DNA from: an uncultured Poribacteria bacterium
Lineage (GTDB): Bacteria; Poribacteria; WGA-4E; PCPOR2b
DNA: 64,000 nt
Direction of reading: 5' to 3'
Assembly (NCBI GenBank): GCA_958296125.1
Contig: OY282444.1
Location: forward strand, 3,629,623-3,693,622
The position numbers and the translations under genes are program-made. The notes under the pieces were generated by a model. That model saw only the letters and a list, made by a program, of their open reading frames with translations. It did not search any database and was not told the DNA's origin. Below are positions 18,460-48,063 of the stretch, in pieces; positions within the stretch are counted from its first letter, which is position 1, and each line of letters starts with the position of its first letter.

Positions 18460-18467
18460 CCTTTTTT

Positions 18468-18542
18468 CGGGGCGTAGCGCAGCCCGGTTAGCGCGTCTGC
18501 TTTGGGAGCAGAAGGTCGGAGGTTCAAATCCTCTCGCCCCGA
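18468..18542 (+). tRNA. tRNA-Pro(TGG)
   Basis: Acceptor CGGGGCG pairs with CGCCCCG. Anticodon TGG lies within TCTGCTTTGGGAGCAGA. The D arm begins TAGCGCAGCCCGG, as in proline tRNAs. Discriminator A; CCA not encoded. Confidence 0.95.
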
Positions 18543-18596
18543 TTTATCGCAAAAACGGAGCATCTTTTAATCTTTCCGTAATAATGTTAGCAATAT

Positions 18597-18670
18597 GCGT
18601 CCGTAGTTCAATTGGATAGAGCAATAGACTTCGGATCTATAAGTTGGGGGTTCGAGTCCCTCCGGGCGCG
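18597..18670 (+). tRNA. tRNA-Arg(TCG)
   Basis: Acceptor GCGTCCG/CGGGCGC, anticodon stem ATAGA/TCTAT with loop CTTCGGA giving TCG, and a TTCGAGT T loop. Discriminator G; CCA not encoded. Confidence 0.94.
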
Positions 18671-18680
18671 CTTTTCTTCT

Positions 18681-18757
18681 GCGCCGTTAGCTCAACCAGG
18701 CAGAGCATCTGACTCTTAATCAGGTGGTTGAAGGTTCAATTCCTTCACGGCGCACCA
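18681..18757 (+). tRNA. tRNA-Lys(CTT)
   Basis: Acceptor GCGCCGT/ACGGCGC, anticodon CTT in CTGACTCTTAATCAG, T arm GAAGG TTCAATT CCTTC. Discriminator A and an encoded CCA. Confidence 0.95.
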
Positions 18758-18766
18758 TTTTGACCT

Positions 18767-18853
18767 GGGCGGGTGTTGGAATCGGTAGACAAGATAGATT
18801 TAGGATCTATTGGGGTTTTCCCCGTGAGGGTTCAAATCCCTCCTCGCCCACCA
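18767..18853 (+). tRNA. tRNA-Leu(TAG)
   Basis: Eighty-seven bases with encoded CCA and a long variable arm (TGGGGTTTTCCCCGT). Anticodon TAG in ATAGATTTAGGATCTAT. Acceptor GGGCGGG/CTCGCCC and discriminator A fit leucine. It lies 26 bases before the tig start, so tRNAs and tig may share a transcript. Confidence 0.95.
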
Positions 18854-32072: not shown

Positions 32073-34719
32073 ATTTCAATCTCATTATTGAGAGTCTTGT
32101 CATTGATAGTGAACCGGCGTGCTTCTTCGGCTGCGACTGCCATGGGTTTCAATCTCATTATTGAGAGTCTTGTCATTGATAGGCTTTGCCCCTGATTGGC
32201 TGCATGGTATTGCCCATAGTTTCAATCTCATTATTGAGAGTCTTGTCATTGATAGGCGGTGCGATCAAGGTCAACCGGCGGCGTAAACATGTTTCAATCT
32301 CATTATTGAGAGTCTTGTCATTGATAGAACCCGAAATTCTCAACGATAGAATCGCGACAAGCTGGTTTCAATCTCATTATTGAGAGTCTTGTCATTGATA
32401 GACAAACGGTACCGAATGCCTTGCCCTTGCCCTTGATACTCTCGTTTCAATCTCACTATTGAGAGTCTTGTCATTGATAGATACGTATCCCCTGTGATAG
32501 GAATCCGCATGGCTACGTTTCAATCTCATTATTGAGAGTCTTGTCATTGATAGGAAAGCAAACCCTCCTCGCACCATCCGCATTGACTATTTGTTTCAAT
32601 CTCACTATTGAGAGTCTTGTCATTGATAGAAAACACCTGGCAAGAGTGCGAATGGGGTTTTGTCAAGTTTCAATCTCACTATTGAGAGTCTTGTCATTGA
32701 TAGGTATCACCAGTGGAGGCATCAGGAGTAGGCTCCTCTACGTTTCAATCTCACTATTGAGAGTCTTGTCATTGATAGAAGGTTGATGAAGTGAAGAGAA
32801 TCGAATCTAAAAAGTTTCAATCTCACTATTGAGAGTCTTGTCATTGATAGGGAGACAACAGATGAATGAGACAGTGTTTTTCGCTATGTTTCAATCTCAC
32901 TATTGAGAGTCTTGTCATTGATAGTCAACGGCTGGTTGGGCGGTCATGTCAGTCGCCAGATGTTTCAATCTCACTATTGAGAGTCTTGTCATTGATAGGA
33001 CCATATACCAGGTCTGACAAACTCATCGCCGGGTGTAGTTTCAATCTCACTATTGAGAGTCTTGTCATTGATAGCGCTTCGCCGTCCAGCGCTTGATCGG
33101 GGAGGGCATGGTTTCAATCTCACTATTGAGAGTCTTGTCATTGATAGATATTACAATCACCCCCGACGATGCGGCGAACACCATGTTTCAATCTCACTAT
33201 TGAGAGTCTTGTCATTGATAGGTTAATCTTGGGGAGGCAGGCTGATGGCGTTTGAAAGTTTCAATCTCACTATTGAGAGTCTTGTCATTGATAGCGGTTC
33301 GGGTAAGTGAAGCTCTAGAAGATATCATAACTGTTTCAATCTCACTATTGAGAGTCTTGTCATTGATAGTACACACTGAGCATAGCGTTGGTTCGCTTCC
33401 CGTATAGAGTTTCAATCTCACTATTGAGAGTCTTGTCATTGATAGGACTCGACACAAGCCGTGACGGTATGGATATCCACTAAAGTTTCAATCTCACTAT
33501 TGAGAGTCTTGTCATTGATAGTTTGAAGATGCGAACGCCGCAACGATCGTGATTAGCCTAACCGTTTCAATCTCACTATTGAGAGTCTTGTCATTGATAG
33601 AGCGGTTCAAGCGGTTCAAGCGGTTCAAGGAACCGAAGTTTCAATCTCACTATTGAGAGTCTTGTCATTGATAGTCCCATACCCGTTATACACCGAGCCC
33701 CCATGCTCCATCAGTTTCAATCTCACTATTGAGAGTCTTGTCATTGATAGCCAGAGCCATACGAAGATCCCGACTTGGAAGTTAATTTGTTTCAATCTCA
33801 CTATTGAGAGTCTTGTCATTGATAGCAAACGAGATGAATTCTTTGCAGTCAAAAAGGAATGTTTCAATCTCACTATTGAGAGTCTTGTCATTGATAGATC
33901 TGACGAGACCAAAATCGATAGTTGCGAAGTGTATTAGGGTTTCAATCTCACTATTGAGAGTCTTGTCATTGATAGTCAAAAGAAAGCAAATACCCGCATG
34001 GTCGACAGTTGATAATGATCGTTTCAATCTCACTATTGAGAGTCTTGTCATTGATAGTTGTTCAAACGGGTTAGGGCTGCTTTGGCTCATGTCAGGTTTC
34101 AATCTCACTATTGAGAGTCTTGTCATTGATAGGACGCAAGGAGGGAAGGAACGCTTAGGCTGTAAAATGTTTCAATCTCACTATTGAGAGTCTTGTCATT
34201 GATAGGATGAATCCGTAAAGTGAACAATACACGACAACGCTGTTTCAATCTCACTATTGAGAGTCTTGTCATTGATAGGGCGACTGTCGGGACGATTGCC
34301 CTTGCGATATGATTGTTTCAATCTCACTATTGAGAGTCTTGTCATTGATAGTCACTACGATCCGTATTACCGCTCCCCAGACCATCAAGGTTTCAATCTC
34401 ACTATTGAGAGTCTTGTCATTGATAGGCTTGCCAAGCCGTCTGGATCGTTTGATTCTCTCTTGTTTCAATCTCACTATTGAGAGCCTTGTCATTGATAGG
34501 GGGGGGTGGACCGTGCCACGCCGCAAAGCGTAAAGGTTTCAATCTCACTATTGAGAGCCTTGTCATTGATAGTTAGATGGCACCGGCACCAACCGGGTCA
34601 GGGGTGGAGTTTCAATCTCACTATTGAGAGCCTTGTCATTGATAGTCGCAATTTTGCGAGCCCAAACTGTATCTGCTATCACGTTTCAATCTCACTATTG
34701 AGAGCCTTGTCATTGATAG
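32073..34719 (-). CRISPR. CRISPR array, 36 repeats of 37 bases and 35 spacers
   Basis: Repeats start every 72-82 bases from 32073 to 34683, with spacers of 35-45 bases. In the transcribed (minus) sense each repeat starts CTATCAATGACAAGACTCTC and ends AGTGAGATTGAAAC: a TCTCA/TGAGA stem with an ATAG loop, then the 8-base handle ATTGAAAC usual for Cas6-cut crRNA. The leader lies at 34720-34939 next to cas2. Variants are ordered: the four leader-proximal repeats carry GGCTCTC instead of GACTCTC; six trailer-end repeats (32073, 32146, 32219, 32291, 32365, 32517) have an ATAA loop; the last repeat (32073) ends ATTGAAAT. One spacer (33601-33637) is a tandem of AGCGGTTCA. Confidence 0.98.
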
Positions 34720-34939
34720 TGCCTATCATTTCGGATCTGTATTGGTAAGGGTTTGCCCGCCCTACTTCTGTCAGGTCCCTTTTCGTTGTTGCGTTGACAT
34801 TCTATTTGCCACAGTTTCCTGAACCTACTCATTATTAACCCTTGACTGTGACTAGCTTTGCGAAATTACTGTCAGGGTAGCAGGTTTTTGCTAGCCCTGC
34901 GCCTCACAGATTTCAACTTTGCAATTGCGTATCTAATTA
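34720..34939 (-). promoter_or_regulatory. CRISPR leader region
   Basis: About 220 bases between the leader-proximal repeat and the cas2 stop codon. Its position, the handle orientation of the repeats and trailer degeneration at the other end all place the leader here. It should carry the array promoter and the integration signals used by Cas1-Cas2. I could not fix the promoter with confidence. Confidence 0.65.
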
Positions 34940-35212
34940 TTACACAATGTATGACTTCCTGTCAACCTCTTTTTCGACACCAATCCGTTCAACTCCCTTC
35001 TCACAGGAACGGCATAGGTGGTAGAAGGTGACAGAATCCTCCTGTAGGTTAATCGCCTCCATAAGCCGATGCTGCAAACGAAGGTAGGCACGTCGATCGG
35101 TGCTGCACTCAAAGAGACTGTATTGGATGCGTGTACCGAAATCCAGCAAAATTTTGGCAACTGCGTTTCGCCGCCGGTCATTGGTAATATCATAAGCAAC
35201 AGCGTAAAACAT
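34940..35212 (-). CDS. cas2: CRISPR-associated endonuclease Cas2
   Basis: A 90-aa ferredoxin-fold protein that pairs with Cas1 in spacer acquisition. The ATG at 35210-35212 is nine bases from GAGGAGG; the GTG six bases earlier is too close. It starts MFYAVAYDITNDRRRNAVAK with the family Asp (D9) and continues RIQYSLFECSTD. It is the last cas gene and lies next to the leader. Confidence 0.93.
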   Translation of the reverse strand: MFYAVAYDITNDRRRNAVAKILLDFGTRIQYSLFECSTDRRAYLRLQHRLMEAINLQEDSVTFYHLCRSCEKGVERIGVEKEVDRKSYIV

Positions 35213-35315
35213 TATCACAGACCTCCTCTATAACATGCCATGATTACTCACAAAAGAACCCGAAATCCGAAGCGAAAAACTTCTTCCAACCTTCCATGTT
35301 TCCCTCTCTGTGGAC

Positions 35316-36953
35316 TCATCGAACTGTCAGCGGTGTATAGGTCTCAATCTCTCCCATAAGACACTTGGCGAGCAGTCGCACTTGTAATTCAAGCGCGCGG
35401 CGAAAGCTAATTTTGTACTTGAAAACGGGATGTGTAATCGTCTCATTTTTGCGCCTCTCATAGGCAGCGTAAAACTTCTTGCGAGCCGGGTCTTTAAGAA
35501 ACCAACCGCCGTGAGATTGGGTGAAGTCGTTTGGCGTAATTTGCCTATTATTGATGAGCGTTACCACCACCGAATCGGCAATAATCGGGCGAAATTCTTC
35601 CATCAGATCCAGCGCGAGACAGGGGCGTCCGTAAGTCTGTTGGTGGAAGAAGCCGACATAGGGGTCAAGTCCGACGGTTTGGATTGCGGAGATAACATCT
35701 GCGGTCAGTAGGGAGTAGGCAAAACTGAGCAGCGCGTTGGTCGAATCTTTGGGAGGACGTCGAGTGCGATGTTCAAAACTGAACCCCATCTCCGTGTTCA
35801 GTATTGATGAGAAAGATCGAAAATAGTCCGCCGATGCATTTCCCTCAAACCCAAGTAATTCGGAGAGATTTTCCGCTTTAGGGAGGCGTCCTCGCATTTT
35901 CCGCATGCCTTCTATACTTGATTCGATAGTGGCTTCTTCGGCATCTGTTTCGGGCTTACCTCGCCATTTCCGGCGTTGGAGCATCATCCGCATGTTACTA
36001 ATTTTGCCATGTACAAACGTCTTCGCAAGCGCGAGGCACTTCTCCTGGTCATCTGCGACCCGATGTTGAGCGACGCGTAGGAGCGAATTTCGAGAGATTT
36101 GTGGCATCAGTACACCCTGATAGCGTCCGTATGCGGAGAGGTAAACGATGGGAATCCCTTCGTTGAGCAAGGTCTGCATCACTGGGGTTGTCACACTGAT
36201 GTTTCCACAAAGCACAACCTGCCCCAGGTGGATGAGTGGGATGTCACGGATGGTTTCCCCCTCTTTGACCACGAGCAGGCGTGCCCCAGTCTTTTTGAGG
36301 ATGCAGCCCTGTTCGTCGACATACAACACGTTATCAATACCGAGGGCGGGCTTGATCCGTTTGGGCCGGTCGTCCAGTTCGTTGAGGTAAGCGACCTCGT
36401 CCGGCAGGCAGATCCCCCGGACGCTACACCCGTTGCATCGGTTATCGTGGACCGGTTCGGGAATCTTTCTGGTCTGCAACAGCGATTCCGCGTCCGAGAC
36501 AAAGTCACGGCTGATCTGCCGCAGTTCCGCATCAAATACTACCTTGCGGCGGCGTTTAGAACCGATATAGTAGATATAGCCGTGAGGGACCACCGTGCCA
36601 GTGCTCTCTTCGATCAACATCCCTTGTAGACAGAGTTGGACCTGATCGTTGAGCCAGTTGCCCGTGCCGGCTTTCTTATATTCGACAGGGCACGATACCC
36701 CCTTCTTCTCTTCAATCAGATCGAGATAACCGGAGACACCCAGCGTGTCAGAGGCGAGATATTGACGACGAGAGACTTTCACCCCCCGCTCATTACGGTT
36801 TTTCATCTCCGTATCAACGCGGGCATGTTTGATTTTCCCTTCCTCAACATGCTCGTTAATCACTTGGTGCCCCTCAACGGATTCGTAGTAGAATCGGCGT
36901 GGACAGAAAACGTAAGTGTTTATCTGCGAAAGCGGTATGTAAGTTTCGGACAT
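35316..36953 (-). CDS. cas4-cas1: Cas4-Cas1 fusion protein
   Basis: A 545-aa fusion of two adaptation proteins. The Cas4 half (1 to about 195) has C17 in YVFCPRRFYYE, the RecB-type nuclease residues D78 (GYLDLIE) and E91-x-K93 (PVEYKKA), and C173, C176 and C182 to complete the iron-sulfur site. The Cas1 half (about 200-545) has the metal ligands E370 (GFEGNASADYF), H437 (FFHQQTYGRP) and the acidic LDLMEEFRP. Cas4 selects and trims PAM-containing prespacers, and Cas1-Cas2 integrates them. Fusions of this kind are known in several type I systems. Confidence 0.96.
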   Translation of the reverse strand: MSETYIPLSQINTYVFCPRRFYYESVEGHQVINEHVEEGKIKHARVDTEMKNRNERGVKVSRRQYLASDTLGVSGYLDLIEEKKGVSCPVEYKKAGTGNWLNDQVQLCLQGMLIEESTGTVVPHGYIYYIGSKRRRKVVFDAELRQISRDFVSDAESLLQTRKIPEPVHDNRCNGCSVRGICLPDEVAYLNELDDRPKRIKPALGIDNVLYVDEQGCILKKTGARLLVVKEGETIRDIPLIHLGQVVLCGNISVTTPVMQTLLNEGIPIVYLSAYGRYQGVLMPQISRNSLLRVAQHRVADDQEKCLALAKTFVHGKISNMRMMLQRRKWRGKPETDAEEATIESSIEGMRKMRGRLPKAENLSELLGFEGNASADYFRSFSSILNTEMGFSFEHRTRRPPKDSTNALLSFAYSLLTADVISAIQTVGLDPYVGFFHQQTYGRPCLALDLMEEFRPIIADSVVVTLINNRQITPNDFTQSHGGWFLKDPARKKFYAAYERRKNETITHPVFKYKISFRRALELQVRLLAKCLMGEIETYTPLTVR

Positions 36954-37066
36954 GGTTTAATACTCCTCCTTCAATCAAGGGTGGGGCAGGCAGATTGGAT
37001 GGGTCACTCCTAACCTTCCACTCCAATTCTGCTTGTGCAGAGGCAAGCTGAGGCTTGCCATCTTTC

Positions 37067-37906
37067 CTACCTCCTCCTTGTCTGTCCCATCCCCATCGTT
37101 GTTTTGTAGCCGGTGCCGCAATAGAAAGCGAAATCAGCGAGCAGGTTCGCCAAACGTAACATCTCAGTGGATCCCTCACCATCGGATTGACGCTCCACGA
37201 AAAATTGGTATGCACAACTTCCAACAAATCCGATCGCCTTATGTTTGCCGAAATCGAGCATCCGGCTCTTGCTGTCAACCGCCGTTAGCCCGGCGTGATG
37301 TGCCACGAAATCGAGAAGGGGCTGCTTATCAATCTGCATCGGTGCAAAGGCGTTCCATTTGTTAACCCAGCTCTGATAGCAACGCACGAGGTCGATATGC
37401 GACTGATTGCGCGTTTTTTGCCCACGCGGCGACAGCTCCCGAAAGGCAGTCGGCGAATAGAATCGCACCCGCATCCGAGTCTCTGTCCCCGCAGATTCAA
37501 TCAGGTCCTCATAAGTCTTTGTGCCACTCCAATTATTACTTTCTGTCCCAGAGGCAACCATTCGGCTCAGTTGAAAGGTTGCTCCCCCGAGCCGAATGGA
37601 CGGTAGACTCTGCGTCAAGAAGGCGTTGCCGAAGTGGGCGAAAAGTGCATCGTCAAGAAATGTGAAGCGGAGCCAGCATTCTGTGCCAGCGCGGATTCGC
37701 AGGAAATTACCACGCCGTTCCCCGTTGCCAATCAACGGCGAAACGGTGAACGGTTTCTGCGCGGATATGGCGTGAATTTCTTCCGCCTTTTCCGGGTCGC
37801 CAATTCGCAGCAGCGAGAGAAACGCGCCGTGCGCGTGATGCCCCATCGTCGGACGCAAGGTGACATCTTCGGGGGGGATGAGGTGGATGACGGTGCTGAT
37901 AGGCAT
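37067..37906 (-). CDS. cas6: CRISPR repeat-processing endoribonuclease Cas6
   Basis: A 279-aa RAMP protein that would cut the array transcript 8 bases from the repeat 3' end. The C-terminal glycine-rich loop YCGTGYKTTMGMGQTRR is the family hallmark; histidines near the N-terminus (MGHHAHGAF) could be catalytic. AAGGAGG lies just upstream of MPISTVIHL. It lies 11 bases after cas3' and 113 before cas4-cas1. Type I-D and I-B Cas6 proteins have this size. Confidence 0.9.
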   Translation of the reverse strand: MPISTVIHLIPPEDVTLRPTMGHHAHGAFLSLLRIGDPEKAEEIHAISAQKPFTVSPLIGNGERRGNFLRIRAGTECWLRFTFLDDALFAHFGNAFLTQSLPSIRLGGATFQLSRMVASGTESNNWSGTKTYEDLIESAGTETRMRVRFYSPTAFRELSPRGQKTRNQSHIDLVRCYQSWVNKWNAFAPMQIDKQPLLDFVAHHAGLTAVDSKSRMLDFGKHKAIGFVGSCAYQFFVERQSDGEGSTEMLRLANLLADFAFYCGTGYKTTMGMGQTRRR

Positions 37907-37917
37907 GGGGAACCTCC

Positions 37918-39807
37918 TTAATCAAGGTTCAAAAAGGTCAACTGTTCACCGCCTTCTGAAGGAGGTTCAACAGATTTTACTTGTTGTGCCGGTTCTGTGT
38001 CAGTCTCTTCCGATTGATTAGAAATTGTGGTGTCTTCTGGCATGGGTGTCGCCAAGTCTCGCAGATAATGCAACCAGATTTTTCGAGGTTCGCGGTTTTC
38101 ATCGGTTGTATTATAGATAAAATTTTGCCGATACCCACTAATACCCCCGTATTCAAAAACTTTGGGGAGCTCATTATAACCTAACTCTTCAGAAAAGTAA
38201 GATTCAGGCACCTCAACAAAGAGTTCTTTAAAGTAAACATTACCGCCAAAGTTAAGTGGCACAAACTTGAATTCTTCGTGATAGTCATCATAAGAGCGTT
38301 GGTACACCTTAAAATTCGGATTCACAACTTCGTCGTTTTGTGTATTTGCGATACAACTTCGGAGCGACACGCTGACAGCGTTTTTTGGTCGGTGTTCAGG
38401 TGATTCGGGGACCTTAGTTGTGAGAGTAATTGAAGGTTCAAAACTCCGAGTAATAACAAGGCCCCTATCGTGAAGAGGTTTGTTTTCAAGGCGCGCTTCA
38501 TAGACATACTCATATAGCATGTCAAAGAGCACTTCCGCCCTATAGTCAGAGTGCGGCTCGTATCTCATAACTTTGAGGATTTCGTCCGGACTGAACCTGT
38601 CTCCATCCAGCTTTTGCAAGATTTGAAGATATTCCTTCTCCATTTCTTGAGAAATGTTAGAGAGACGTATCTTGTTTCCCACAACAATGATTTCAGCGTC
38701 CGGAATTTTGCCATTGCGGTTGCATCTGCCTGCCCGTTGGATGAGTTGATCGGGGTTGCACAACTCTGTAATAAGCAGATTTGCATCAAGGTCACACCCT
38801 ACCTCAATTGCACTTGTTGTAAAAAGGAGATAACCCTCATTTTTCTTTAACTTACCATAGACCCTTTTGCGTTGCAGATTGGATAGTCGTCCGTGGTAGA
38901 GAAAAATGTTCTCATCGCCGCTCCGCTCTTTCATATACTGGTAAGCCGGAATAAGGTCTTGAATCGTTTCAATGGTGACAATGGTCCGCTTACTTGGATC
39001 GTACCGCTGCGATATGCAGGCACAGATTTCGTCCCGAACCTTTCCCCCTGGCTCCACACTAATGCGCTTAATTGACTTGTTAGGATGCTGCCGCTTCTGC
39101 TTTTGTTCCTGCCAACTTTCTAGTTCTCGTTGATTCTCACCTGTGGTATAATCCACTTTATCTAAGAAATCCAATTCCTCTTGGTACGCGTCAGGCATTG
39201 TCGCAGTCATGACAACTATATCCAGATTGGCTTTGTAGAGTGCCTTAATGAGCCGTTCAAAGTTGACAAACGCAACCCCATCATAGGAATGGACTTCGTC
39301 AAAACAGAAAAGATTCTGCCGTTGACTGTGGTGAATCCGGAACGGGTAGATATAAGATTTTATGGGTTCACCAAATCCAAAAAAGCGATACAGGAACTTG
39401 TCAAACGTTGTGAGGATAACATCGCCATCGTAGAGATGGCGATTTCCTTTTTCCATTTCTTTGCCAGTCTTAAAAACGGTGCGTTCAGACTCGGCTCCTG
39501 TGTCAACAACTAGCGCATAAGATTTTCCCAGCTTTTCTGATGTACGCTGGAGGTACTCTGTGCATCGGCCAATCTGGTCTTCAACAAGACTCCGCGAAGG
39601 AAAGATCAGAAATAGGCGACGAGGGCACTCTGCGGCGAAGCTTGGCACAAGGACTGCCTCTGTTTTTCCACTGCCTGTGGGTGCCTTGAGTAGAATCGCA
39701 GGATTCTTCTCTTTCGGAGCAATGAGAGCAAAAAGTTTATCCTGCATCGGGTTCGGCTCGAATTTTGTGCCTGCAATCTGTTGATACGCCTCTAATACGC
39801 TTTGCAT
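37918..39807 (-). CDS. cas3: Cas3' helicase of type I-D character
   Basis: A 629-aa superfamily 2 helicase without an HD domain. The start MQSVLEAYQQ at 39807 has GGAAGG ten bases upstream; the ATG at 39831 has none. Motifs: Walker A APTGSGKT (42-49), DEVH (170-173), TAT (201-203), and motif VI QRAGRCNR. The DEVHSYDG box and overall length match the helicase-only cas3 of type I-D (cyanobacterial subtype) systems. It overlaps the HD nuclease gene by 16 bases, so nuclease and helicase are translated together as separate proteins. Confidence 0.9.
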   Translation of the reverse strand: MQSVLEAYQQIAGTKFEPNPMQDKLFALIAPKEKNPAILLKAPTGSGKTEAVLVPSFAAECPRRLFLIFPSRSLVEDQIGRCTEYLQRTSEKLGKSYALVVDTGAESERTVFKTGKEMEKGNRHLYDGDVILTTFDKFLYRFFGFGEPIKSYIYPFRIHHSQRQNLFCFDEVHSYDGVAFVNFERLIKALYKANLDIVVMTATMPDAYQEELDFLDKVDYTTGENQRELESWQEQKQKRQHPNKSIKRISVEPGGKVRDEICACISQRYDPSKRTIVTIETIQDLIPAYQYMKERSGDENIFLYHGRLSNLQRKRVYGKLKKNEGYLLFTTSAIEVGCDLDANLLITELCNPDQLIQRAGRCNRNGKIPDAEIIVVGNKIRLSNISQEMEKEYLQILQKLDGDRFSPDEILKVMRYEPHSDYRAEVLFDMLYEYVYEARLENKPLHDRGLVITRSFEPSITLTTKVPESPEHRPKNAVSVSLRSCIANTQNDEVVNPNFKVYQRSYDDYHEEFKFVPLNFGGNVYFKELFVEVPESYFSEELGYNELPKVFEYGGISGYRQNFIYNTTDENREPRKIWLHYLRDLATPMPEDTTISNQSEETDTEPAQQVKSVEPPSEGGEQLTFLNLD

Positions 39808-40592
39808 AAAATCATATCCTTCCGCTGACATTTCGTATAGGTGTGTGCCTTAACAATTAGTTCACGTAGATGGCTCAACCCTTTTTGCGAACTATCTCCT
39901 GTTAGTGCCTGGGCTATCTGACAACGGTCTTCCTTGGGCATATCAAATTGATAATATGTAAGGGATAGAGGAATCCCCTCATTTTCGCCCTCGTTGCCGA
40001 ATGGATAGGGGGTAACTTCAACCCTTCCCTCTTTGGGCATACGCGAGTGAAAATCCATAAAGACACGTGGTTGTACATTGCCTGTGAACGCGTATGTTTC
40101 AATCTCCGCCTCAATCTGATCGCACATTTCTAGGATGTAAAGGTCAAGAAGAAAGCTTTCAATCTTTTCTTTGGAGAACCCTGAATTGGAAAGTTCAAAC
40201 TGGGCTTTAACGATACCTTCGACGGAAAATTCGTGATGCAGCCGGATAAGCAGTTCAACATAGAGATTGGGATCAAAAACCCTAAAACGGTGACCTGCAA
40301 AGGAGTAGCCTAGGGATTTGGGGGTGCTCCCTTTCCAACCCCGATAAGTTAGGCGAAAGGTTTCCGGTTTCGCGTCGTCATGTTTTTGGGCCGCGCGTAC
40401 CAGCAGGTCGCGAGTTTCTTGGGCACCCCATTTAAAGGTTGGATAGAAATCTCGCCGAAACTTTTCCACCAACTTGACAACATTTCCAACGTGGCTCTCC
40501 AGAGTGAGCACAGTAACGGTTTCTATATCCGGCCCACTATCCGGTCTAAAGAAAACCCGACCAACCTTAACTGTATCTATTGTATTAGTCAC
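39792..40592 (-). CDS. cas3'': Stand-alone HD nuclease Cas3''
   Basis: A 266-aa protein starting at GTG 40590-40592, seven bases after AAAGGAG. The open frame runs further upstream through cas5 but the GTG is well supported. It contains a complete HD set: H34, H71-D72, H101, H119/H120 and D158 (LEMCDQIEAEIE). It overlaps the cas5 stop by 8 bases and cas3' by 16. In standard type I-D this domain is the N-terminus of Cas10d; here it is a separate gene next to the helicase, as in type I-A. Confidence 0.85.
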   Translation of the reverse strand: MTNTIDTVKVGRVFFRPDSGPDIETVTVLTLESHVGNVVKLVEKFRRDFYPTFKWGAQETRDLLVRAAQKHDDAKPETFRLTYRGWKGSTPKSLGYSFAGHRFRVFDPNLYVELLIRLHHEFSVEGIVKAQFELSNSGFSKEKIESFLLDLYILEMCDQIEAEIETYAFTGNVQPRVFMDFHSRMPKEGRVEVTPYPFGNEGENEGIPLSLTYYQFDMPKEDRCQIAQALTGDSSQKGLSHLRELIVKAHTYTKCQRKDMILCKAY

Positions 40593-41370
40593 CTTCTGCT
40601 CCTTTCCGCAATTCATCAACGAACGGTCGCGGGAGGTACACTGTCCCATCCGTATAGTAATCGAGTTCAATCTCCCCTTGAACTTCTCCGGCAACAAAGG
40701 GAATGAATCCTTTAATAGAACTGGGTTCAGGGTGTTCAAGGGGTGTATCTGGGGAGGGCTTCCCTTCCCAAGCATAACGATACAGTGAAAACGCTTCGCA
40801 TGGAATCCCGACGAGTTCGGTCCCGGGCAAGAGTGTATCAGGTTCAGCGCGTGTTCGTTCCAAGGCGAGTTGGGTCGGCCCGCAAATCCTATCCACAAAA
40901 GCGTATCCCTCTTTGCCGATTTTACAACCGAAGTTTTTAACCGTTTTCAATTGGCTCAGGAGCTCCTCGTCTTCCGAAACCACGTAACCAATGAGTTTTT
41001 CAACAAAGAGGTATTCCCACGTGTGGAGTTGATAGTTTTCTTCTTGTTTCCTTTTATAGCCAACGATTCGCGAGAAGGTACTGTGGTTGAAAGCCTTCAT
41101 CCCCTGTCGCTTTGTTGTATGGACACAATACCCTCGTGCCTTGGGATATGCCCCAAGTGGACAAAGTTGGGGCGGCAAGGCGTAATAATCCGGATCTTTG
41201 ATAGCGGTTTCCGGGAAATGCCCAGCTCCCAGCAGCTTCAAGCGGCGCAAAAAGCCGGACATCGTTGTCGGCGGTAGAAACGGATAGGTACTGATATGCA
41301 GGATGGACGACGGCATCCGTCGAAATGTCAATCCTGATGTCGGTTTAATTTCCAGTTTCAGCATCCACAT
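40585..41370 (-). CDS. cas5: Cas5 family protein (Csc1-like)
   Basis: A 261-aa RAMP protein that should cap the 5' handle of crRNA in the Cascade complex. The start MWMLKLEIK at 41370 is nine bases after GGAGG. The N-terminal strand is followed by YPFLPPTTMSGFLRRL, the proline-rich segment usual in Cas5 proteins. Assignment to the I-D Csc1 branch rests on its position next to a Csc2-like gene. It overlaps cas7 by 26 bases. Confidence 0.8.
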   Translation of the reverse strand: MWMLKLEIKPTSGLTFRRMPSSILHISTYPFLPPTTMSGFLRRLKLLGAGHFPETAIKDPDYYALPPQLCPLGAYPKARGYCVHTTKRQGMKAFNHSTFSRIVGYKRKQEENYQLHTWEYLFVEKLIGYVVSEDEELLSQLKTVKNFGCKIGKEGYAFVDRICGPTQLALERTRAEPDTLLPGTELVGIPCEAFSLYRYAWEGKPSPDTPLEHPEPSSIKGFIPFVAGEVQGEIELDYYTDGTVYLPRPFVDELRKGAEGD

Positions 41371-42316
41371 TGCTAAGTACCTCCGTTTCAAAACTGACTA
41401 GATACTCCGATATCTTTGCGATAGCGGCATTCCCGACGTATCGGTGGAAGTTCCCTTGGGTCAATTCGCTGTCAGATGGCTGTTCGCTCCCGGCAATTGA
41501 AAAAACAGCCTTCTTGAACTGAGCTTTCGCCAAGTCAACATCTGTAATGGCGGGCGAAACCACAGGCCGCTTGCCAAGTGGGGCGAGATACCGGTCAATG
41601 ACAAGCCACGGTTCATCCTCATCTAGTTTCGTAAGCGGAGCATCATGGATCTTAACCCCTTTGGGATTGCCCGCTCCCAGACGTGCCAATGCCCCCATAA
41701 ACGCGTAAGCAACAGCGGAGAATTCACGGTCCGTCATACTCACACAATGATTGTAAACTGGATAGAGAAGCCCCGGTTGATTATACTCTCGTTTGAAAGG
41801 GGTTGGTGTCGGGTCCGCTTCGGGGGGTTTCCGCATGATTGAAGGATGCATCGCACGCTGCTTCTCCTCGGGGCCCAACGCCTGAATTGCAACTCCGCCG
41901 CTATGCGTCAAGCGGCCAATAAGTGTGGTTGGAGGACGTTTTTCGCCTTCAATCTCAGTTGCACTTGTAATCAGTCCACCAAAGACACGGCAGATTGGAC
42001 ACTCGGCTTTGCTACAAGTGTGTGGAATACCGCAGTTCAGTCCATCACCCAGCAGTCCAGTTCCAGTTGGTGCCCAAATTAGCGAGCGCCGTTCAACACC
42101 ACGCCGCTTGGTCGGGGAGAGATAGCATTTCTCAAGTTCGTTGGCCTCGGTGTCATTAGATACCGGGATAGTAACCATCTCGACGATGTTGACATTCACC
42201 TGCGTCTCATGTCCGAAGAAGAGTTCCTGGCCCCCTTCAAGAATTGCGTAAATGTCAAAGTGGAATCGCGGTTCGTCGGTGTAAGTCTCAAGTCCAGATT
42301 TCACGTTAATTGCCAT
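41345..42316 (-). CDS. cas7: Cas7 family backbone protein, Csc2-like
   Basis: A 323-aa protein expected to coat the crRNA spacer in six or more copies. AAGGAGA precedes MAINVKSGLETYT. The central segment WAPTGTGLLGDGLNCG, followed by a possible zinc site (C95, H99, C101, C106 and C109), and the DREFSAVAYAFMGALARLGAG region agree with Csc2, the Cas7 of type I-D. It lies 17 bases downstream of the large-subunit gene. Confidence 0.85.
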   Translation of the reverse strand: MAINVKSGLETYTDEPRFHFDIYAILEGGQELFFGHETQVNVNIVEMVTIPVSNDTEANELEKCYLSPTKRRGVERRSLIWAPTGTGLLGDGLNCGIPHTCSKAECPICRVFGGLITSATEIEGEKRPPTTLIGRLTHSGGVAIQALGPEEKQRAMHPSIMRKPPEADPTPTPFKREYNQPGLLYPVYNHCVSMTDREFSAVAYAFMGALARLGAGNPKGVKIHDAPLTKLDEDEPWLVIDRYLAPLGKRPVVSPAITDVDLAKAQFKKAVFSIAGSEQPSDSELTQGNFHRYVGNAAIAKISEYLVSFETEVLSNVDAETGN

Positions 42317-42333
42317 TTTGGTTAATCTCCTTT

Positions 42334-42792
42334 CTAGTTGAATAGGGAGGCGAACTTCGTATAAAGGTTAAGTTTGAGCTGATAAAACAACTTTCTCTGT
42401 TCAGCCTTGTTATATCTTTGAGATAACTCGGCGTAAGCGTTGAGAATGTCGTCAAAGTAAATTACTAGATGCTCCTGCCCTTTCTCATTATGTTCTTCAC
42501 GACTGGATAACTCCAATTTAAGCGTTCCTTGCAATAGTCGCTTTGCTTGATCGTAGCAGAAGTAGTTATCATCGTTGCGGAACATCGTTGCGCGCGTACC
42601 GGGGAGTATATCAGAAGCTTCGTAGTTGAAGAAACTAGCGTTCGCAACTTTCTCGATCAGTTTTTTGACTTCGCGTTGTACCGTATCGCGAGTTTTTGAT
42701 TTTTCGAGTTCCCCGCGGACGTAATGACAATAAGCGTAGGTCAATCCGGTAAGCGCGGCGACATCGTAAAAAAATGCTGCTTTTTTGACCAT
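42334..42792 (-). CDS. cas11d: Putative internally translated Cas11-like small subunit
   Basis: Inside the large-subunit gene and in the same frame, AAAAGGAG (42801-42808) is followed after eight bases by ATG (42790-42792). This is a better ribosome site than that of the full gene. The product would be the C-terminal 152 aa (MVKKAAFFYDVAALTGLTYA...), mostly helical, the right size and fold class for Cas11. In type I-D, I-B and I-C systems the small subunit is known to be made from an internal start of the large-subunit gene. Confidence 0.7.
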   Translation of the reverse strand: MVKKAAFFYDVAALTGLTYAYCHYVRGELEKSKTRDTVQREVKKLIEKVANASFFNYEASDILPGTRATMFRNDDNYFCYDQAKRLLQGTLKLELSSREEHNEKGQEHLVIYFDDILNAYAELSQRYNKAEQRKLFYQLKLNLYTKFASLFN

Positions 42793-44541
42793 GAGTTTAT
42801 CTCCTTTTGAGGATTGCTCAAGTAAAGTACAGTGTTTTTCCCGGAGCTCCTCAAGACTCCGTTTTTCACTATATGACCAATCATAGATTGGTGTTGCTTC
42901 AGTGGATTCTGCGGTTGCCAATTTATACATAGCAGAAATCACTTCATCTTTCTGAATGAGCCGAATCGCTTGACATAACTGCATATTATCTTTACGGTTC
43001 ACGATAAGACGAGGTGAAAAACTTTCTTGGAGATGACTAAGCCAAACTAGATATCGACTTGGTAACAAAATCTCCGATTCGCCTGCAAAAAGCGTAAAAT
43101 CCATCTTTTCAAGCGCGCCAACGGGAAGAGTTCTGGCGACTCTCCAGAGTGTATACTGCACCTGCCCGATTTTTTCTGAAACGGGTGTTGAACCCCCGCG
43201 CTCGCGTACAAATTCGCGGCAGTTCATCAGTAAATATCGTCCGGCAATCAGATTCATTTCACCAAGGGTTAGCATCTGGAGATATTTTTCAGGTAATACC
43301 TGTTGGTTCTCCTCGCCAGTTTGTGGTGCCAAACGAACGATAATCGCGCCGCCTGCTAGTTTAATCGGGCAACCGAAAGCAACCGTAAGGCAGTTAGGGC
43401 AAATAGACGCTTTAGGGCGGTCTTGCGCGTTCCCTGATTGCAACCTTTGAGAGGGATCTGAAAAGACAAATCGGTTTGCCGTTAGGTTGCCCTTAAAGTG
43501 GTGGGTCTCGCTTTTGGGTGGTAAATACCTGCCACAACTGTAGCAACGGTTTCTGGCTGTATCACCAGCACCGTGGGTGTGGTTTTGCGCCATTTCGTCA
43601 ACTGAAGCAAGTGGACAGGCCAGAATACTAACAGGTTCATTCAAAATCTCAATAATTTTATCTTCAATTTTTCCTTTTTTTGAGCGAGGTTTCACCGTAC
43701 CGTAAGAAAATTGGCTTGAACCAGTTCGGTTGAATTGATGAGAAAGCCTTACCGCTTTGTCGAAACTGAGCCTATTGGTTCGCAGCTCAGCGCGCAAACC
43801 GGCTAGGAGTTCCCTCAGTTCTTCACTATTCGCTTTGAAGGCAGTCTTGCGCTCCTCGTCGGTTTTGGCTTTCTTATAGTTGTCGGGGTATCGAACAACT
43901 CTTTCCTCAAGTGTTGCAATGTAAAAGGCGGCTTGCCAAAGCTTCATCGCTTCTGTTACCGATGGAAAGTGAACGTAACCAAAACCTCTATTAGTCAACT
44001 TCATGCTATTCACAAATAACGTAAAGGACTTATATAAATCTTCTTCTGAATAAGCAAATTGAATGAACTGTTGCCATTCATTCTCAATCTGAAAATTTGT
44101 CTTTGGTATAAACAGGGTAACTGTCAATCGATTTTCTGAAAGACGGATAGCACATTTTTCCTGCTGTAGGAATCCCATGAACCTTTCAATCAACGTGTCA
44201 TAAGCAAGCCTAATCTGAATCTCTTGCGGAAGTATGGTCCGGTAATAACTATAGGTTTTCCCAATCGGCTTGTCCTTAAAGATGATTATGTCTCCATGCT
44301 GGGACAGCAGGTCAAGCGGGCTCGGCGGGCACTTATCAGTTTCTGATTTATATTTCATTATCTGCTTAGCATACCGTAGGACGCGCAATGCCTCCATTTC
44401 ATCCCACCACTGTTTGAGTTGTTCGGACTTTCCTCTGTGTTGCATCCAGTTTACGAATACCTCAAGGTCCCCTGTGAGTTCATCTTGTTTTGTCGCTGCA
44501 AGGTGAGCAGCGAAAATCTTTTCTCTCTGTTGGGCATTCAT
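42334..44541 (-). CDS. cas10d: Cascade large subunit, Cas10d/Csc3-like but without HD domain
   Basis: A 735-aa protein at the head of the cas operon. It has a pair of CxxC motifs (C333/C336 and C381/C384), as in Cas10 and Cas8 large subunits, a helical C-terminal domain, and no HD or GGDD motif. Gene order and the Csc2/Csc1/helicase partners point to type I-D, where the usual Csc3 is about 900-1000 aa with an N-terminal HD; adding the separate 266-aa HD protein gives about 1000. AAGGAG lies 12-13 bases before the ATG. An internal start at 42792 (see next feature) could add a small subunit. A Cas8 identity cannot be excluded. Confidence 0.75.
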   Translation of the reverse strand: MNAQQREKIFAAHLAATKQDELTGDLEVFVNWMQHRGKSEQLKQWWDEMEALRVLRYAKQIMKYKSETDKCPPSPLDLLSQHGDIIIFKDKPIGKTYSYYRTILPQEIQIRLAYDTLIERFMGFLQQEKCAIRLSENRLTVTLFIPKTNFQIENEWQQFIQFAYSEEDLYKSFTLFVNSMKLTNRGFGYVHFPSVTEAMKLWQAAFYIATLEERVVRYPDNYKKAKTDEERKTAFKANSEELRELLAGLRAELRTNRLSFDKAVRLSHQFNRTGSSQFSYGTVKPRSKKGKIEDKIIEILNEPVSILACPLASVDEMAQNHTHGAGDTARNRCYSCGRYLPPKSETHHFKGNLTANRFVFSDPSQRLQSGNAQDRPKASICPNCLTVAFGCPIKLAGGAIIVRLAPQTGEENQQVLPEKYLQMLTLGEMNLIAGRYLLMNCREFVRERGGSTPVSEKIGQVQYTLWRVARTLPVGALEKMDFTLFAGESEILLPSRYLVWLSHLQESFSPRLIVNRKDNMQLCQAIRLIQKDEVISAMYKLATAESTEATPIYDWSYSEKRSLEELREKHCTLLEQSSKGDKLMVKKAAFFYDVAALTGLTYAYCHYVRGELEKSKTRDTVQREVKKLIEKVANASFFNYEASDILPGTRATMFRNDDNYFCYDQAKRLLQGTLKLELSSREEHNEKGQEHLVIYFDDILNAYAELSQRYNKAEQRKLFYQLKLNLYTKFASLFN

Positions 44542-44594
44542 AACTATTCAAAATTCTCCTTGGGTTGTTGGGCTATTTAGATTGATCGACGGTT

Positions 44595-44622
44595 ATAATA
44601 ACATACGACCACAGTCGCACAA
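44595..44622 (-). promoter_or_regulatory. Candidate promoter of the cas operon
   Basis: On the minus strand TATTAT (44595-44600) would be the -10 box and TTGTGC (44617-44622) a weak -35 box, 16 bases apart, about 55 bases before the large-subunit ATG. The weak -35 box suggests the promoter may need an activator or be subject to control. Confidence 0.4.
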
Positions 44623-44844
44623 ACCTGCGCCTGATCGAAAAAAAATTCAACGCAATCTCATTTTTTTTTAGAAAAATTTAATCTTTCTTGAATTGAATGC
44701 TAATGATATGTAAGACCGAACCCCTCCTTGGCGATAGTTTTTTCAAGAATCGAGTCAACATACAGATAGTCTTTCAACCGCAAATTTATTGATATAAATA
44801 GTATTAAACAAAATAGTAACATAACATTTAATAAAACGCAAATA
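44623..44844. other. AT-rich region between cas promoter and mini-CRISPR terminator
   Basis: Strongly AT-rich, with long A and T runs (for example near 44638-44676). No frame with a ribosome site is visible. It could hold operator sites for the WYL regulator or targets of the mini-CRISPR RNA. One 6-base match (CAACAT at 44756-44761) to the first bases of the mini-CRISPR spacer was noted, too short to mean much. Confidence 0.35.
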
Positions 44845-44882
44845 AAAAATAAAGGCTCCCAGATCCGTTAAGCCTTTATTTC
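44845..44882 (-). terminator. Terminator of the mini-CRISPR RNA
   Basis: On the minus strand AAATAAAGGCT and AGCCTTTATTT form an 11-base-pair stem with a 13-base loop, followed by TTTTTT. The stem is flanked by A and T runs on the two sides, so it may work in both directions. Confidence 0.8.
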
Positions 44883-44996
44883 CAACTAACTCAAAATTGA
44901 GATTCTTCTAGAAAAGTTGCATAAAACATAATACCAACATTTTTCAATCTCGTATTTATTTCAATCCCACTCTTCATCGAGAGTCTTTCCACTATA
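44845..44996 (-). ncRNA. Solitary mini-CRISPR (CreR-like) RNA gene upstream of the cas operon
   Basis: Read on the minus strand: degenerate repeat at 44958-44996 (GACTCTC hairpin and AGTGGGATTGAAAT end), a partial copy at 44941-44950 (GAGATTGAAAA), a spacer-like segment starting ATGTTGGTATTATG, a second degenerate repeat around 44885-44918 (AAGAATCTCAATTTTGAG against AAGACTCTCAATAGTGAG), then the terminator. A consensus promoter directly precedes it. The likely RNA is about 145 bases from near 44987. This layout matches Cas-regulating RNAs (CreR), which guide Cascade to repress cas promoters. Function is inferred. Confidence 0.6.
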
Positions 44997-45022
44997 ATAC
45001 CACAACCCATCCTTTGGGTCAA
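44994..45022 (-). promoter_or_regulatory. Consensus promoter of the mini-CRISPR RNA
   Basis: TTGACC (45017-45022), exactly 17 bases, TATTAT (44994-44999) on the minus strand. The -10 box touches the first degenerate repeat, so transcription would start just before its hairpin. It is clearly stronger than the candidate cas-operon promoter. Confidence 0.75.
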
Positions 45023-45222
45023 GGACAGAATCAAACATTTTGCCCTTGCTCTATGAAGGCAGAGCCTTAACCCCATTGCTATTTGTCCGCTGTTCAGGTG
45101 CCCTCAACGCAAGCGTCAACCGCCGACAGTTTTCGCAAACTCTCTACCGTATTCGCAATCTCTTTTTCACGCGCGTTGCAGACAAAATAAATATCCCCTT
45201 CCACCCTTCCCTTCTTCCAATC

Positions 45223-46191
45223 TTAATTCTTTCGATATACCTCTACCATCTTCTCCGCTGTCTCCGCCACCCATTCTCGCAATTCTTTCGGTTCAATCAC
45301 CTCTGCCTCATCTCCCCACCCCAAAACCCACCAACCGACTTCCTGCCAGCCCGCGACTGTGGCTTCAAAGCGTAGGCTCCCAGCGTTTTCGTGTATCTCC
45401 TGCGTTGAGTGCCAGTGCACCTCTCGGATGAGAGGGGCGATGCGCGGCGCGAACTCAATAACGACGTGTGTCTCCGGGCCAAGCCTGAAAGCCCAACTCT
45501 TCTCCATATATCGCTGCACGGAGAAATCTTCGGGGATCGTATAGGGGGCAGAGCTGATGAAGAGAGAGTCAATGCGGTTGATGCGGAAAGTTAGAATCTT
45601 ATTTAATCTTTCAGTGGATCCAATCACATACCATGCGCGTCTGCGAAACAGGACTGCATACGGTGAAAGCCGATGCTGCTCCCGCCTTCCACTGCTGAAA
45701 GAATTATATGCCATGTTGACCTTGCGCCGTTTCCGAATCGCTTCGTATAGCTTCTCTTTATGCAATTGCGTTTCATCGATTTGGCTGACCTGTTGATGTG
45801 GAACTTCAATCTGTGGAGCAATTTGGCTTAAAGTTTCGTTTGTCTGCTTTGGTAAATTCGAGGTGATTTTATGGATGGCACTATTGAGAACCTCTATTGC
45901 CTGCTCCCCTTCTGCTGCCTGATAAAAACGGGCTGCTGTAATGAGTGCGAGTGCCTCCTCAAAGTTAAGATTGGGGATAGGGAGGAAAAAGTCGGAGGTC
46001 ATTTCGTATCCCTGTTTGCCACATGGATTAATCTGGATTTCCATGCCACGCAACAGATCAATATCACGTTGGATGGTTCCTTTATCGACTCTAAGGTGTG
46101 CTGCCAACCGAGGGCGGGTCCACCGACGCGGTTCGTTGTGAATAAGGGACGCGATTTTGATGATTCGCGCCATCTGATATGTTCGGTACAT
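45223..46191 (-). CDS. WYL-domain transcriptional regulator
   Basis: A 322-aa regulator. The ATG at 46189-46191 (MYRTYQMARIIKIASLIHNE) follows AAAGGAT; the frame upstream to 46377 is rejected because it would overlap the neighbouring gene and has no ribosome site. An N-terminal winged helix (RPRLAAHLRVDKGTIQRDID) precedes a WYL domain (RREQHRLSPYAVLFRRRAWYVIG) and a C-terminal WCX-like part. WYL proteins near CRISPR loci regulate cas genes by sensing ligands such as nucleic acids. It lies 200 bases upstream of the mini-CRISPR promoter on the same strand. Confidence 0.9.
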   Translation of the reverse strand: MYRTYQMARIIKIASLIHNEPRRWTRPRLAAHLRVDKGTIQRDIDLLRGMEIQINPCGKQGYEMTSDFFLPIPNLNFEEALALITAARFYQAAEGEQAIEVLNSAIHKITSNLPKQTNETLSQIAPQIEVPHQQVSQIDETQLHKEKLYEAIRKRRKVNMAYNSFSSGRREQHRLSPYAVLFRRRAWYVIGSTERLNKILTFRINRIDSLFISSAPYTIPEDFSVQRYMEKSWAFRLGPETHVVIEFAPRIAPLIREVHWHSTQEIHENAGSLRFEATVAGWQEVGWWVLGWGDEAEVIEPKELREWVAETAEKMVEVYRKN

Positions 46192-46265
46192 GGTATCCTT
46201 TTGGTGCCTTTTGGGCAGGGTGCCCCTACCAAATAACTCATCCTTCCTTTCCATACGCATTGGTG

Positions 46266-47129
46266 TTATTTGTTGCTTTCTTGGGTCGCCTTCTTCGCTT
46301 GACTTGCAAGCCGCCCAGCTTGTTTTGCCAATCGCTTGGCTTCCTCGATCCGTTTCATCAAGGCGCGGTTCGTCCACGCAACGCCAGCCAAATACCGAAT
46401 CTCCTTGCCGTTGGTCGCTGATGCGTTCAACGCCTCTGCAGCAAGATAAACCTGCAAACCACTATCTGCAATATGGCGGAGTCCTGTATTAACACCCCTA
46501 CCATCAACCTCAACGCTGAAAGTCAGACTGCCCCGTGCAAAGGCGGGGTGAAAATCTTTACTGATACCCAAGAACGCGCCGTTCAATACTTGGCTGATAC
46601 CAATATCTTCGACAAAACGGCGATTCCCGATACCGATATGGCCCGTAATATGATGAATACGTGGTAGGGTGAACTGCTTGCTAACCGCAAGGAACGCGGA
46701 CTTGCGTTCGTATCGCTCCATATCTTTCAGTTCGCTCTCAACACTGTCGCCGATATTTTCCAGTCCGACTGCGACGTTGGGAACAACCCCAGTCTCGCGG
46801 AGCAGAAGCACTTTGAGATTTCCCAATAAAAAACTCCGTTGATTGTGTCGAACATTTGTCAAACCAATCTCGACACGATCGAAAAGCCCAAAATCGAGTT
46901 GGAGTGCAACTTCGTCGCGGGGCAATTCGCTGGCGTTACGAAAGCCAAAGTAAGTTCCAAGGTTAAATACCCCATGTTCGATAACCTTGCCCGTCGGTAT
47001 GTCTACCAATCCACTAGCCCGGTAATAGGGAGCAGCCCACAGACGAGGTGAACAAAGTATGGTAACGCAAAACAGAGAAATGATTAGCCGTTGCAGCCCA
47101 ATCGGAAAAGCATTATAAATGAAATTCAT
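46266..47129 (-). CDS. Exported outer-membrane beta-barrel-like protein
   Basis: A 287-aa protein with a signal peptide (LIISLFCVTILCSPRLWA) followed by alternating beta strands (YYRASGLVDIPTGKVIEHG, DFGLFDRVEIGLTNV, ARGSLTFSVEVDGRG). The pattern resembles YjbH/Gram-negative barrel proteins. The C-terminus is a lysine/alanine-rich helix (RLAKQAGRLASQAKKA). Role unknown. It lies 74 bases upstream of the WYL gene and could be co-transcribed with it. Confidence 0.6.
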   Translation of the reverse strand: MNFIYNAFPIGLQRLIISLFCVTILCSPRLWAAPYYRASGLVDIPTGKVIEHGVFNLGTYFGFRNASELPRDEVALQLDFGLFDRVEIGLTNVRHNQRSFLLGNLKVLLLRETGVVPNVAVGLENIGDSVESELKDMERYERKSAFLAVSKQFTLPRIHHITGHIGIGNRRFVEDIGISQVLNGAFLGISKDFHPAFARGSLTFSVEVDGRGVNTGLRHIADSGLQVYLAAEALNASATNGKEIRYLAGVAWTNRALMKRIEEAKRLAKQAGRLASQAKKATQESNK

Positions 47130-48010: not shown

Positions 48011-48063
48011 ATGCGAAGTGTATCTTGGCTTTTGTGCAATTCCCACTGGGGCGTATCAAAATC

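Follow-up and report, generated by a model that had tools for sequence, protein, structure and literature searches.

A Cas8b-group CRISPR-Cas locus of Poribacteria with a probable two-protein Cas3

The locus and its probable two-part Cas3

We analysed a CRISPR-Cas (clustered regularly interspaced short palindromic repeats and associated proteins) locus in a 64,000-nucleotide stretch of DNA, here called the window, from an uncultured Poribacteria bacterium (assembly GCA_958296125.1, contig OY282444.1, positions 3,629,623 to 3,693,622). The window sits within a 5.16-Mb single-contig genome, and the locus is real and complete. Its cas operon consists of minus-strand open reading frames (ORFs) at 34940-46377, the strand of all cas features given below, and adjoins a CRISPR array at 32073-34719. 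The order is WYL regulator, large subunit, Cas7, Cas5, stand-alone HD protein, helicase (Cas3'), Cas6, Cas4-Cas1 fusion, Cas2 and the 36-repeat array. With a probability of about 0.8, we read this locus as a complete type I system of the Cas8b (I-B) group in which Cas3 is made as two proteins from overlapping genes, a predicted HD nuclease (Cas3'') and a predicted helicase (Cas3'). An earlier note on this DNA, drawn up from its letters alone, had described a type I-D-like system at 39792-44541. The genes, sizes and HD residues it gave agree with the ORF list and a residue check, and its span is right for the effector genes and the HD gene; as the extent of the full system it falls short, with the helicase, Cas6, adaptation genes and array at 32073-39807 and the WYL gene at 45223-46377.

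The stand-alone HD gene (39792-40592, GTG start, 266 aa) lies between cas5 and the helicase gene and overlaps them by 8 nt and 16 nt, respectively; overlap with both had been reported in the note. The full HD set that it had seen in this protein is also present, with K75 in addition: H34, H71-D72, K75, H101, H119, H120 and D158 are invariant in a 20-row HD alignment, the window among its rows, and in a 12-row set extended by two distant homologues. In the 20-row alignment, the window protein is 26-32% identical to the HD part of fused Cas3. Sister systems with the same gene order have a fused Cas3 whose HD part is homologous to this protein, which we therefore assign on sequence grounds as the nuclease half of Cas3. 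It has the Cas3-type ligand set (H, HD, H, HH, D) and, in an AlphaFold2 (AF2) model with a predicted local distance difference test score (pLDDT) of 90.7, an HD fold; nuclease activity is predicted. A second structural comparison of this model returned mostly HD-superfamily structures, including Cas3 4q2c (Z 6.3, root-mean-square deviation (rmsd) 4.0, 155 residues), and fails to discriminate between the HD domains of Cas3 and Cas10d; the absence of Cas10d among the 50 matches listed excludes nothing. Foldseek gave no match to the model at E<=0.001, and Pfam, NCBIfam and PADLOC, queried with the 368-aa ORF of the protein, gave none up to E 1. Searches of PDB sequences with HD profiles gave only weak unrelated or general HD matches.

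The Cas3' gene (37918-39807, 629 aa) encodes a DEVH-box helicase, as the earlier note stated, with the motifs APTGSGKT, DEVH, TAT and QRAGR. It matches cas3_core (2e-45), and its best PADLOC model is Cas3d (5e-59), followed by one named Cas3a1. We read the HD-helicase junction base by base in seven loci from seven genomes (the window and L012-L017; both loci of the poribacterial genome G075 lie outside this set). In all seven, the helicase ATG stands 8 nt after an AAGGAN hexamer inside the HD gene and the two genes overlap by 16 nt. The hexamer, a Shine-Dalgarno (SD)-like site, is AAGGAG in five junctions and AAGGAT or AAGGAC in the window (AAGGAT, 39816-39821) and its closest relative. The helicase ORF of the window is open to ATG 39831, and an upstream in-frame ATG occurs in only four of the junctions. 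Because ATG 39807 is conserved in all seven and the upstream ATG is missing in three, we place the helicase start at ATG 39807 and not at ATG 39831. In the HD model, a confident strand (residues 256-264) is encoded across the SD-like site and into the beginning of the overlap. These features fit coupled translation of two proteins.

All nine poribacterial loci, from eight genomes (the window, six distinct loci and two from G075), encode HD and helicase in separate frames. The two share one open frame of 865-946 codons in 13 of the 14 cyanobacterial and Thermaceae loci; in the fourteenth, from Picosynechococcus PCC 8807 (L001:15922-18629), the cas3 frame is broken inside the helicase. The annotation of Thermus thermophilus HB27 (L034:11780-14229) gives a shorter cas3 and, after it, an ORF of 660 nt that overlaps it. 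The pattern across the poribacterial junctions indicates that the split is conserved and not an error. The earlier note had taken the HD nuclease to be split from the large subunit; the HD protein instead matches the N-terminal HD of the undivided Cas3 that the nearest relatives encode at the same place in the gene order, and this puts the split in Cas3.

Large subunit, predicted internal Cas11 start and remaining genes

The large subunit (42334-44541, 735 aa) is the component on which the profile and structural evidence diverge most. It contains no HD dipeptide, as the earlier note observed, and no GGDD motif. PADLOC assigns it to Cas8b (PDLC01527, 5e-119), and it had no match to Cas10d/Csc3 or Cas8a at E up to 1 in NCBIfam and PADLOC; neither it nor Cas7 matched any NCBIfam model. 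The note had proposed a profile search, with a better match to a Cas8 family than to Cas10d as the result that would tell against its I-D reading, and at the profile level this is the result obtained. Profile comparison with six Cas10d sequences was negative (hhalign E 0.7), and a search of PDB sequences returned three chance-level matches up to E 10, none of them to a Cas protein. Four zinc-ribbon cysteines (C333, C336, C381 and C384) are invariant in 17 rows. An AF2 model built from these rows (pLDDT 77.5, predicted template modelling score 0.72) had a single Foldseek match in the PDB at E<=0.001, the I-D Cas10d chain 7sba_I (E 9.9e-4, probability 1.00). The match is moderate, with Z 7.3 and rmsd 7.9 over 473 residues, model residues 1-732 lying on chain residues 84-965. 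The next matches were unrelated proteins at Z 5.4 and below; other Cas10d chains scored 4.2-5.2, type III Cas10 chains 3.7-5.0, and Cas8 of a I-B CRISPR-associated transposon 3.7. The absence of the I-B Cas8b of Synechocystis 6714 (8H67) among the 50 matches listed excludes nothing. The structural comparison with Cas10d that the earlier note proposed thus gave the best fold match to Cas10d, at a moderate level only. In published work, which we cite here for the parts of each source available to us, Cas10d has been likened to the zinc-finger region of Cas8b, and large subunits have been suggested to be inactivated Cas10 derivatives (Makarova et al. 2011, PMC3150331); the fold match therefore agrees with a known idea. 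Judging from the model, a Cas10d-like core may persist in the large subunit, minus the HD domain.

The large-subunit gene also has an internal start of the kind expected for a Cas11 small subunit (42334-42792; predicted product of 152 aa), with AAGGAG at 42801-42806, 8 nt before ATG 42792. Production of Cas11 by internal translation is known for types I-B, I-C and I-D (PMC11096372, PMC9123187). We scanned for start codons with SD-like sites in alignment columns with four or more such rows, leaving out the damaged locus L017. A single column passed in the poribacterial large-subunit genes, namely codon 584 in the window (ATG 42792), which has AAGGAG-N8-ATG in four and GGAG-N8-ATG in two of the eight rows. 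By eye, the other two (L015, L064) have AAGGAG at this column and an ATG one codon further on. Thirteen of the 14 rows from other lineages have an SD-like site with ATG (GTG in one) six columns upstream, L031 being the one without, so that a comparable start is present in 21 of 22 rows, including 11 of 12 cyanobacterial rows. The predicted Cas11 covers the C-terminal helical part of the large-subunit model. Column 691 also passed (11 of 22 rows, cyanobacteria) and is explained by a conserved Lys-Gly. Control genes gave columns as well: one in Cas7, which is the cas5 start (8/8 rows), two in Cas3' (5/8 and 4/8) and two in Cas4-Cas1 (5/7 and 4/7). In the one row printed for each, the Cas3' and Cas4-Cas1 columns are GTG or TTG with four-letter motifs.

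Cas7, the backbone subunit (41345-42316, 323 aa), carries the motif CPICRVFGG and matches PADLOC Cas7b (PDLC01388, 3e-106). Cas5 (40585-41370) matches Cas5b (PDLC01389, 7e-75). Its ORF is open from 41391, and its start is probably ATG 41370, which is preceded by an SD-like GGAGGT in the window; an SD-like site stands at that column in all eight rows of the Cas7 control. Neither protein matched a Csc2 or Csc1 model at E up to 1. With hhalign, Cas7 aligned to the Csc2 profile over 23 columns covering the Cys motif only (E 0.03), the comparison of Cas5 with Csc1 was negative (E 0.03 over 25 columns), and a search of PDB sequences with the Cas7 profile found no match. The helicase, cas7 and cas5 had all been put forward as pointing to I-D. 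This survives for the helicase, for which Cas3d is best, and is lost for Cas5 and for Cas7, which had been called Csc2-like and is linked to Csc2 only through the lineage that we call type B, described below.

Cas6, a predicted CRISPR RNA-processing nuclease (37067-37906), has Pfam Cas6 domains and matches PADLOC Cas6d (4e-39). The Cas4-Cas1 fusion (35316-36953, 545 aa) matches NCBIfam cas4g_cas1g (636.8 bits, cut-off 560) and cas1_CYANO (I-D; 387.7 bits, cut-off 385); PADLOC ranks Cas1g first, then Cas1b and Cas1d, and its best Cas4 model is Cas4d. Cas2 (34940-35218) matches Pfam PF09827 (1e-22) and PADLOC Cas2d (2e-28). PADLOC thus ranks I-D models first for the helicase, Cas6 and Cas2, and for Cas4 as well. 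The array comprises 36 repeats of 37 nt (GTTTCAATCTCACTATTGAGAGTCTTGTCATTGATAG, with up to two substitutions) and 35 spacers of 35-45 nt. The WYL-domain transcriptional regulator that heads the locus (45223-46377; Pfam WYL 1.7e-14, WCX 1.5e-19) probably starts further downstream than its ORF. Just beyond the locus, an 813-aa protein (48025-50466) has a weak match to the PglZ domain (E 1.4e-4, below the Pfam cut-off) and is possibly another defence gene. Elsewhere, the window contains a large bacterial signal recognition particle RNA (3370-3636) and tRNA clusters at 3660-4840 and 18298-18853. The host genome (G000:C1) has three further Cas1 matches, near 2630623, 1245576 and 4878873, the last of them short and with an internal stop; other CRISPR loci are therefore probable in this genome.

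Gene set, ligands, motifs, split and Cas11 start site are read from the sequence, and the steps proposed here extend established type I biology to them. The array transcript would be cut by Cas6. Cas7, Cas5, the large subunit and Cas11 would form a Cascade complex that locates a target flanked by a protospacer-adjacent motif (PAM) and opens an R-loop. The helicase and HD nuclease, probably products of coupled translation, would then be recruited together, as in type I-A, and the HD protein would nick the displaced strand as the helicase unwinds. New spacers would be added by Cas4-Cas1 and Cas2.

Distribution, type B and rival explanations

Sixteen relatives were found in named genomes: the four closest are from Candidatus Poribacteria, 11 are cyanobacterial and one is from Calidithermus. 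The closest copies are carried by genomes of the window host's own order and family, and we accordingly regard this host as a Poribacterium. The order large subunit - Cas7 - Cas5 - HD - helicase is kept in all 20 distinct loci searched by tblastn with the window proteins. A search of the phylum with the large-subunit profile matched nine of 84 Poribacteria genomes; one of these, G050, belongs to type B, which leaves the window family in eight of 84. The genome G075 has two diverged copies (L064 and L065) on two contigs, each of which matches all eight cas queries. In the genome G030 (L017, 11413-13492), the large-subunit gene lacks its end and cas7 its start, and HD, helicase, Cas6 and adaptation genes are kept.

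Type B comprises two loci, in Poribacterium G050 (L066:6363-13725) and on a plasmid of Rubrobacter radiotolerans (L068:2555-9723). The G050 locus, matched weakly by the large-subunit profile (E 4e-4), has the order helicase - stand-alone HD (286 aa) - large subunit (912 aa) - Cas7 - Cas5 and no array in the 18 kb examined. Its helicase fits a PADLOC model labelled I-D (1202 bits), its large subunit and Cas5 fit I-B models, and its Cas7 matches Cas7b (3e-21) ahead of Cas7d (1e-8). The Rubrobacter plasmid has the same order; its Cas7 is annotated as Csc2, an unnamed protein is in the place of Cas5, and the annotated large-subunit gene has 2067 nt, with a 450-nt ORF after it. This locus also has a CARF gene of the TIGR02710 family. 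In profile comparisons, each with only the two type B sequences, type B proteins matched those of the window family for HD (E 8e-11 over 61 columns), the N-terminal part of the large subunit (E 2e-12 over 99 columns) and Cas7 (E 3e-16 over 221 columns). Type B Cas7 also matched Csc2 (E 1.6e-6 over 132 columns), and on these profiles type B links the Cas7 of the window family to Csc2. The type B large subunit and HD showed no link to Cas10d by profile comparison.

Could the locus instead be of type I-D, with an HD nuclease that began as the N-terminus of Cas10d and was then detached from it? Such an origin would account for the large-subunit fold, for the I-D models that lead for the helicase, Cas6, Cas2 and Cas4, and for the related type B, which has an I-D gene order and a separate HD just before the large subunit. 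However, no window protein has a profile match to Cas10d/Csc3, Csc2 or Csc1, and profile-profile comparisons were negative for the large subunit, Cas5 and HD (no similarity to the Cas10d HD), that of Cas7 being limited to its short Cys motif. The HD protein is homologous to the Cas3 HD of sister loci. The site residues of the Cas10d HD are named as H81, H115, D116 and D210 (PMC9123187), and H81 and H115 are its only invariant histidines in six rows; the window protein has invariant H101, H119 and H120 besides H34, H71-D72 and D158. We consider this origin improbable.

The remaining rivals accept that the HD belongs to Cas3 and question the split itself. A frameshift error or the decay of a normal fused cas3 would be in keeping with the fused genes of sister lineages, with the break in Picosynechococcus L001 and with the annotation of HB27. 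Yet the same split, overlap and SD-like helicase start recur in every junction read, the split itself in every poribacterial locus, the HD ligands and helicase motifs are intact, and the modelled strand runs through the SD-like site into the overlap; with the junction conserved and ligands and motifs intact, error or decay is largely refuted, and we give it next to no credence. Programmed ribosomal frameshifting in the overlap, yielding a fused Cas3 beside or instead of the two proteins, would account for the identical overlap length and frame relation (-1) of the seven junctions. SD-like elements also occur upstream of some bacterial frameshift sites, as one does here. Against this, no common slippery heptamer was seen in the seven junctions (by eye; no programmed test), and the SD-like site has ordinary spacing to an ATG that is always present. 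Frameshifting of this kind seems very unlikely. Translation as two Cas3 proteins remains our preferred explanation.

Several observations weigh against our classification or limit it. The I-B label rests on PADLOC models, the cut-offs of the NCBIfam models for Cas8b, Cas7 and Cas5 not being reached. For the Cas10d fold match, the comparison tool warns that Z below 8 may reflect a common arrangement only. Exact scans of viral contigs with parts of three of the 35 spacers found no target, which bears on the activity of the array. Not every copy is functional, given the G030 locus, and joint action of the HD and helicase proteins is proposed by analogy.

The trees are compatible with either direction of change between split and fused Cas3. 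The helicase tree leaves out the I-C row, which had given an earlier, discarded tree a very long branch, and the Nostoc plasmid rows; the tree of helicase, Cas7 and Cas5 leaves out L017, whose cas7 is damaged. Poribacterial copies form one group in both (support 100/100 and 68/92, respectively). Both trees join Thermaceae and cyanobacteria with weak support (55/28 and 85/65). By the approximately unbiased test (p-AU), grouping Poribacteria with cyanobacteria or with Thermaceae is not rejected (0.49 and 0.085 for the helicase; 0.33 and 0.17 for the three proteins), nor is type B with Poribacteria (0.37, helicase tree). Taking type B to represent the old state, one would have to place a single fusion on the best trees; the alternatives are not rejected. 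The gene order, with HD directly before the helicase as in fused Cas3, fits either direction. We put forward tentatively, as a doubtful but possible scenario, that the stand-alone HD is the old state and that the window family and type B are living intermediates of a process by which HD moved between the Cas10d-like large subunits of I-D and the Cas3 of other type I systems. The helicase fusion would then have occurred once, in the ancestor of Thermaceae and cyanobacteria, "Cas8b" here would be a Cas10d core minus HD, and this part of I-B would belong beside I-D.

Classification and comparison with known systems

The families themselves are already known, since PADLOC models exist for both lineages. 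Among the matches listed in searches on I-D/Cas10d/HD, Thermus I-B, Poribacteria CRISPR, Cas8b/Cas10d, split I-B Cas3, Cas8/Cas10 unification and internal Cas11, and in the portions of the sources available, we found no account of this group that describes a split Cas3. Folds of Cas8 and Cas10d are compared in the 2025 classification, which, in the portion available, does not discuss the split-Cas3 case (PMC12669027); the same portion of a review of cyanobacterial type I systems makes no mention of it (PMC11903412). Within that literature, the parts for which we found no description are the conserved split, its junction and the comparison across lineages. According to the proposal of Makarova et al. 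(2011), the HD domain separated from Cas10 and joined the helicase at a later stage; in I-D, it moved to an inactivated Cas10 or was fused with it as a stand-alone protein (PMC3150331). Systems that pair a separate HD with a large subunit that lacks HD and may have a Cas10d-like fold are the material needed to test this proposal, and the present system may help to show how the HD nuclease moved between proteins. A separately encoded helicase has also been suggested to go with bidirectional cleavage (PMC10212523), a suggestion that a conserved two-protein Cas3 outside I-A permits testing.

In type I-A, Cas3' and Cas3'' are separate (PMC10212523), and the window shares this arrangement, together with a helicase whose second PADLOC model is named Cas3a1; type I-A differs in its Cas8a large subunit, which the 735-aa protein does not match at E up to 1. 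The likeness to I-A that the earlier note drew therefore extends to the two Cas3 proteins and not to the large subunit. Type I-D is defined by a Cas10d/Csc3 large subunit with an N-terminal HD, which the window lacks, and by a Cas3' helicase without HD, which it has. The I-D system of Synechocystis pSYSA shares with the window the HD-less helicase, similar Cas6 and adaptation proteins, a WYL regulator and possibly the large-subunit fold, and differs in the HD on Cas10d, in Csc2 and Csc1, and in gene order. Type B shares the stand-alone HD, the HD-less large subunit and the profile relationships of HD, Cas7 and the N-terminal part of the large subunit; it differs in its order, helicase - HD - large subunit - Cas7 - Cas5, and in a Cas7 closer to Csc2.

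By PADLOC, the window has the Cas8b large subunit, Cas7b and Cas5b of type I-B; the one-piece Cas3 (HD and helicase) of that type is found in none of the nine poribacterial loci. The I-B system on pTT27 of Thermus thermophilus HB8 and HB27 has homologous proteins in the order WYL - large subunit - Cas7 - Cas5 - Cas3 - Cas6. It differs in having HD and helicase in one frame (HB8) and in encoding Cas4, Cas1 and Cas2 individually, on the opposite strand. The I-B system of HB27 is reported to interfere in vivo with a TTC PAM (PMC10989782) and is by elimination the HB27 relative of the window family. Cyanobacterial relatives (e.g., Nostoc, Pseudanabaena and Dolichospermum) share the effector genes, with 29-33% identity for the large subunit and 53-56% for Cas7 over the alignments; they differ in a one-piece Cas3 and in Cas4 and Cas1, which, where found, matched as two separate stretches. 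We classify the system as a variant of subtype I-B with a split Cas3 and I-D affinities. The earlier reading as an I-D variant or intermediate gives way, for the variant, to the Cas8b, Cas7b and Cas5b profiles; "intermediate" keeps some support from the Cas10d fold match, the I-D PADLOC models and type B. The window family and type B lie between I-B and I-D as these subtypes are now defined.

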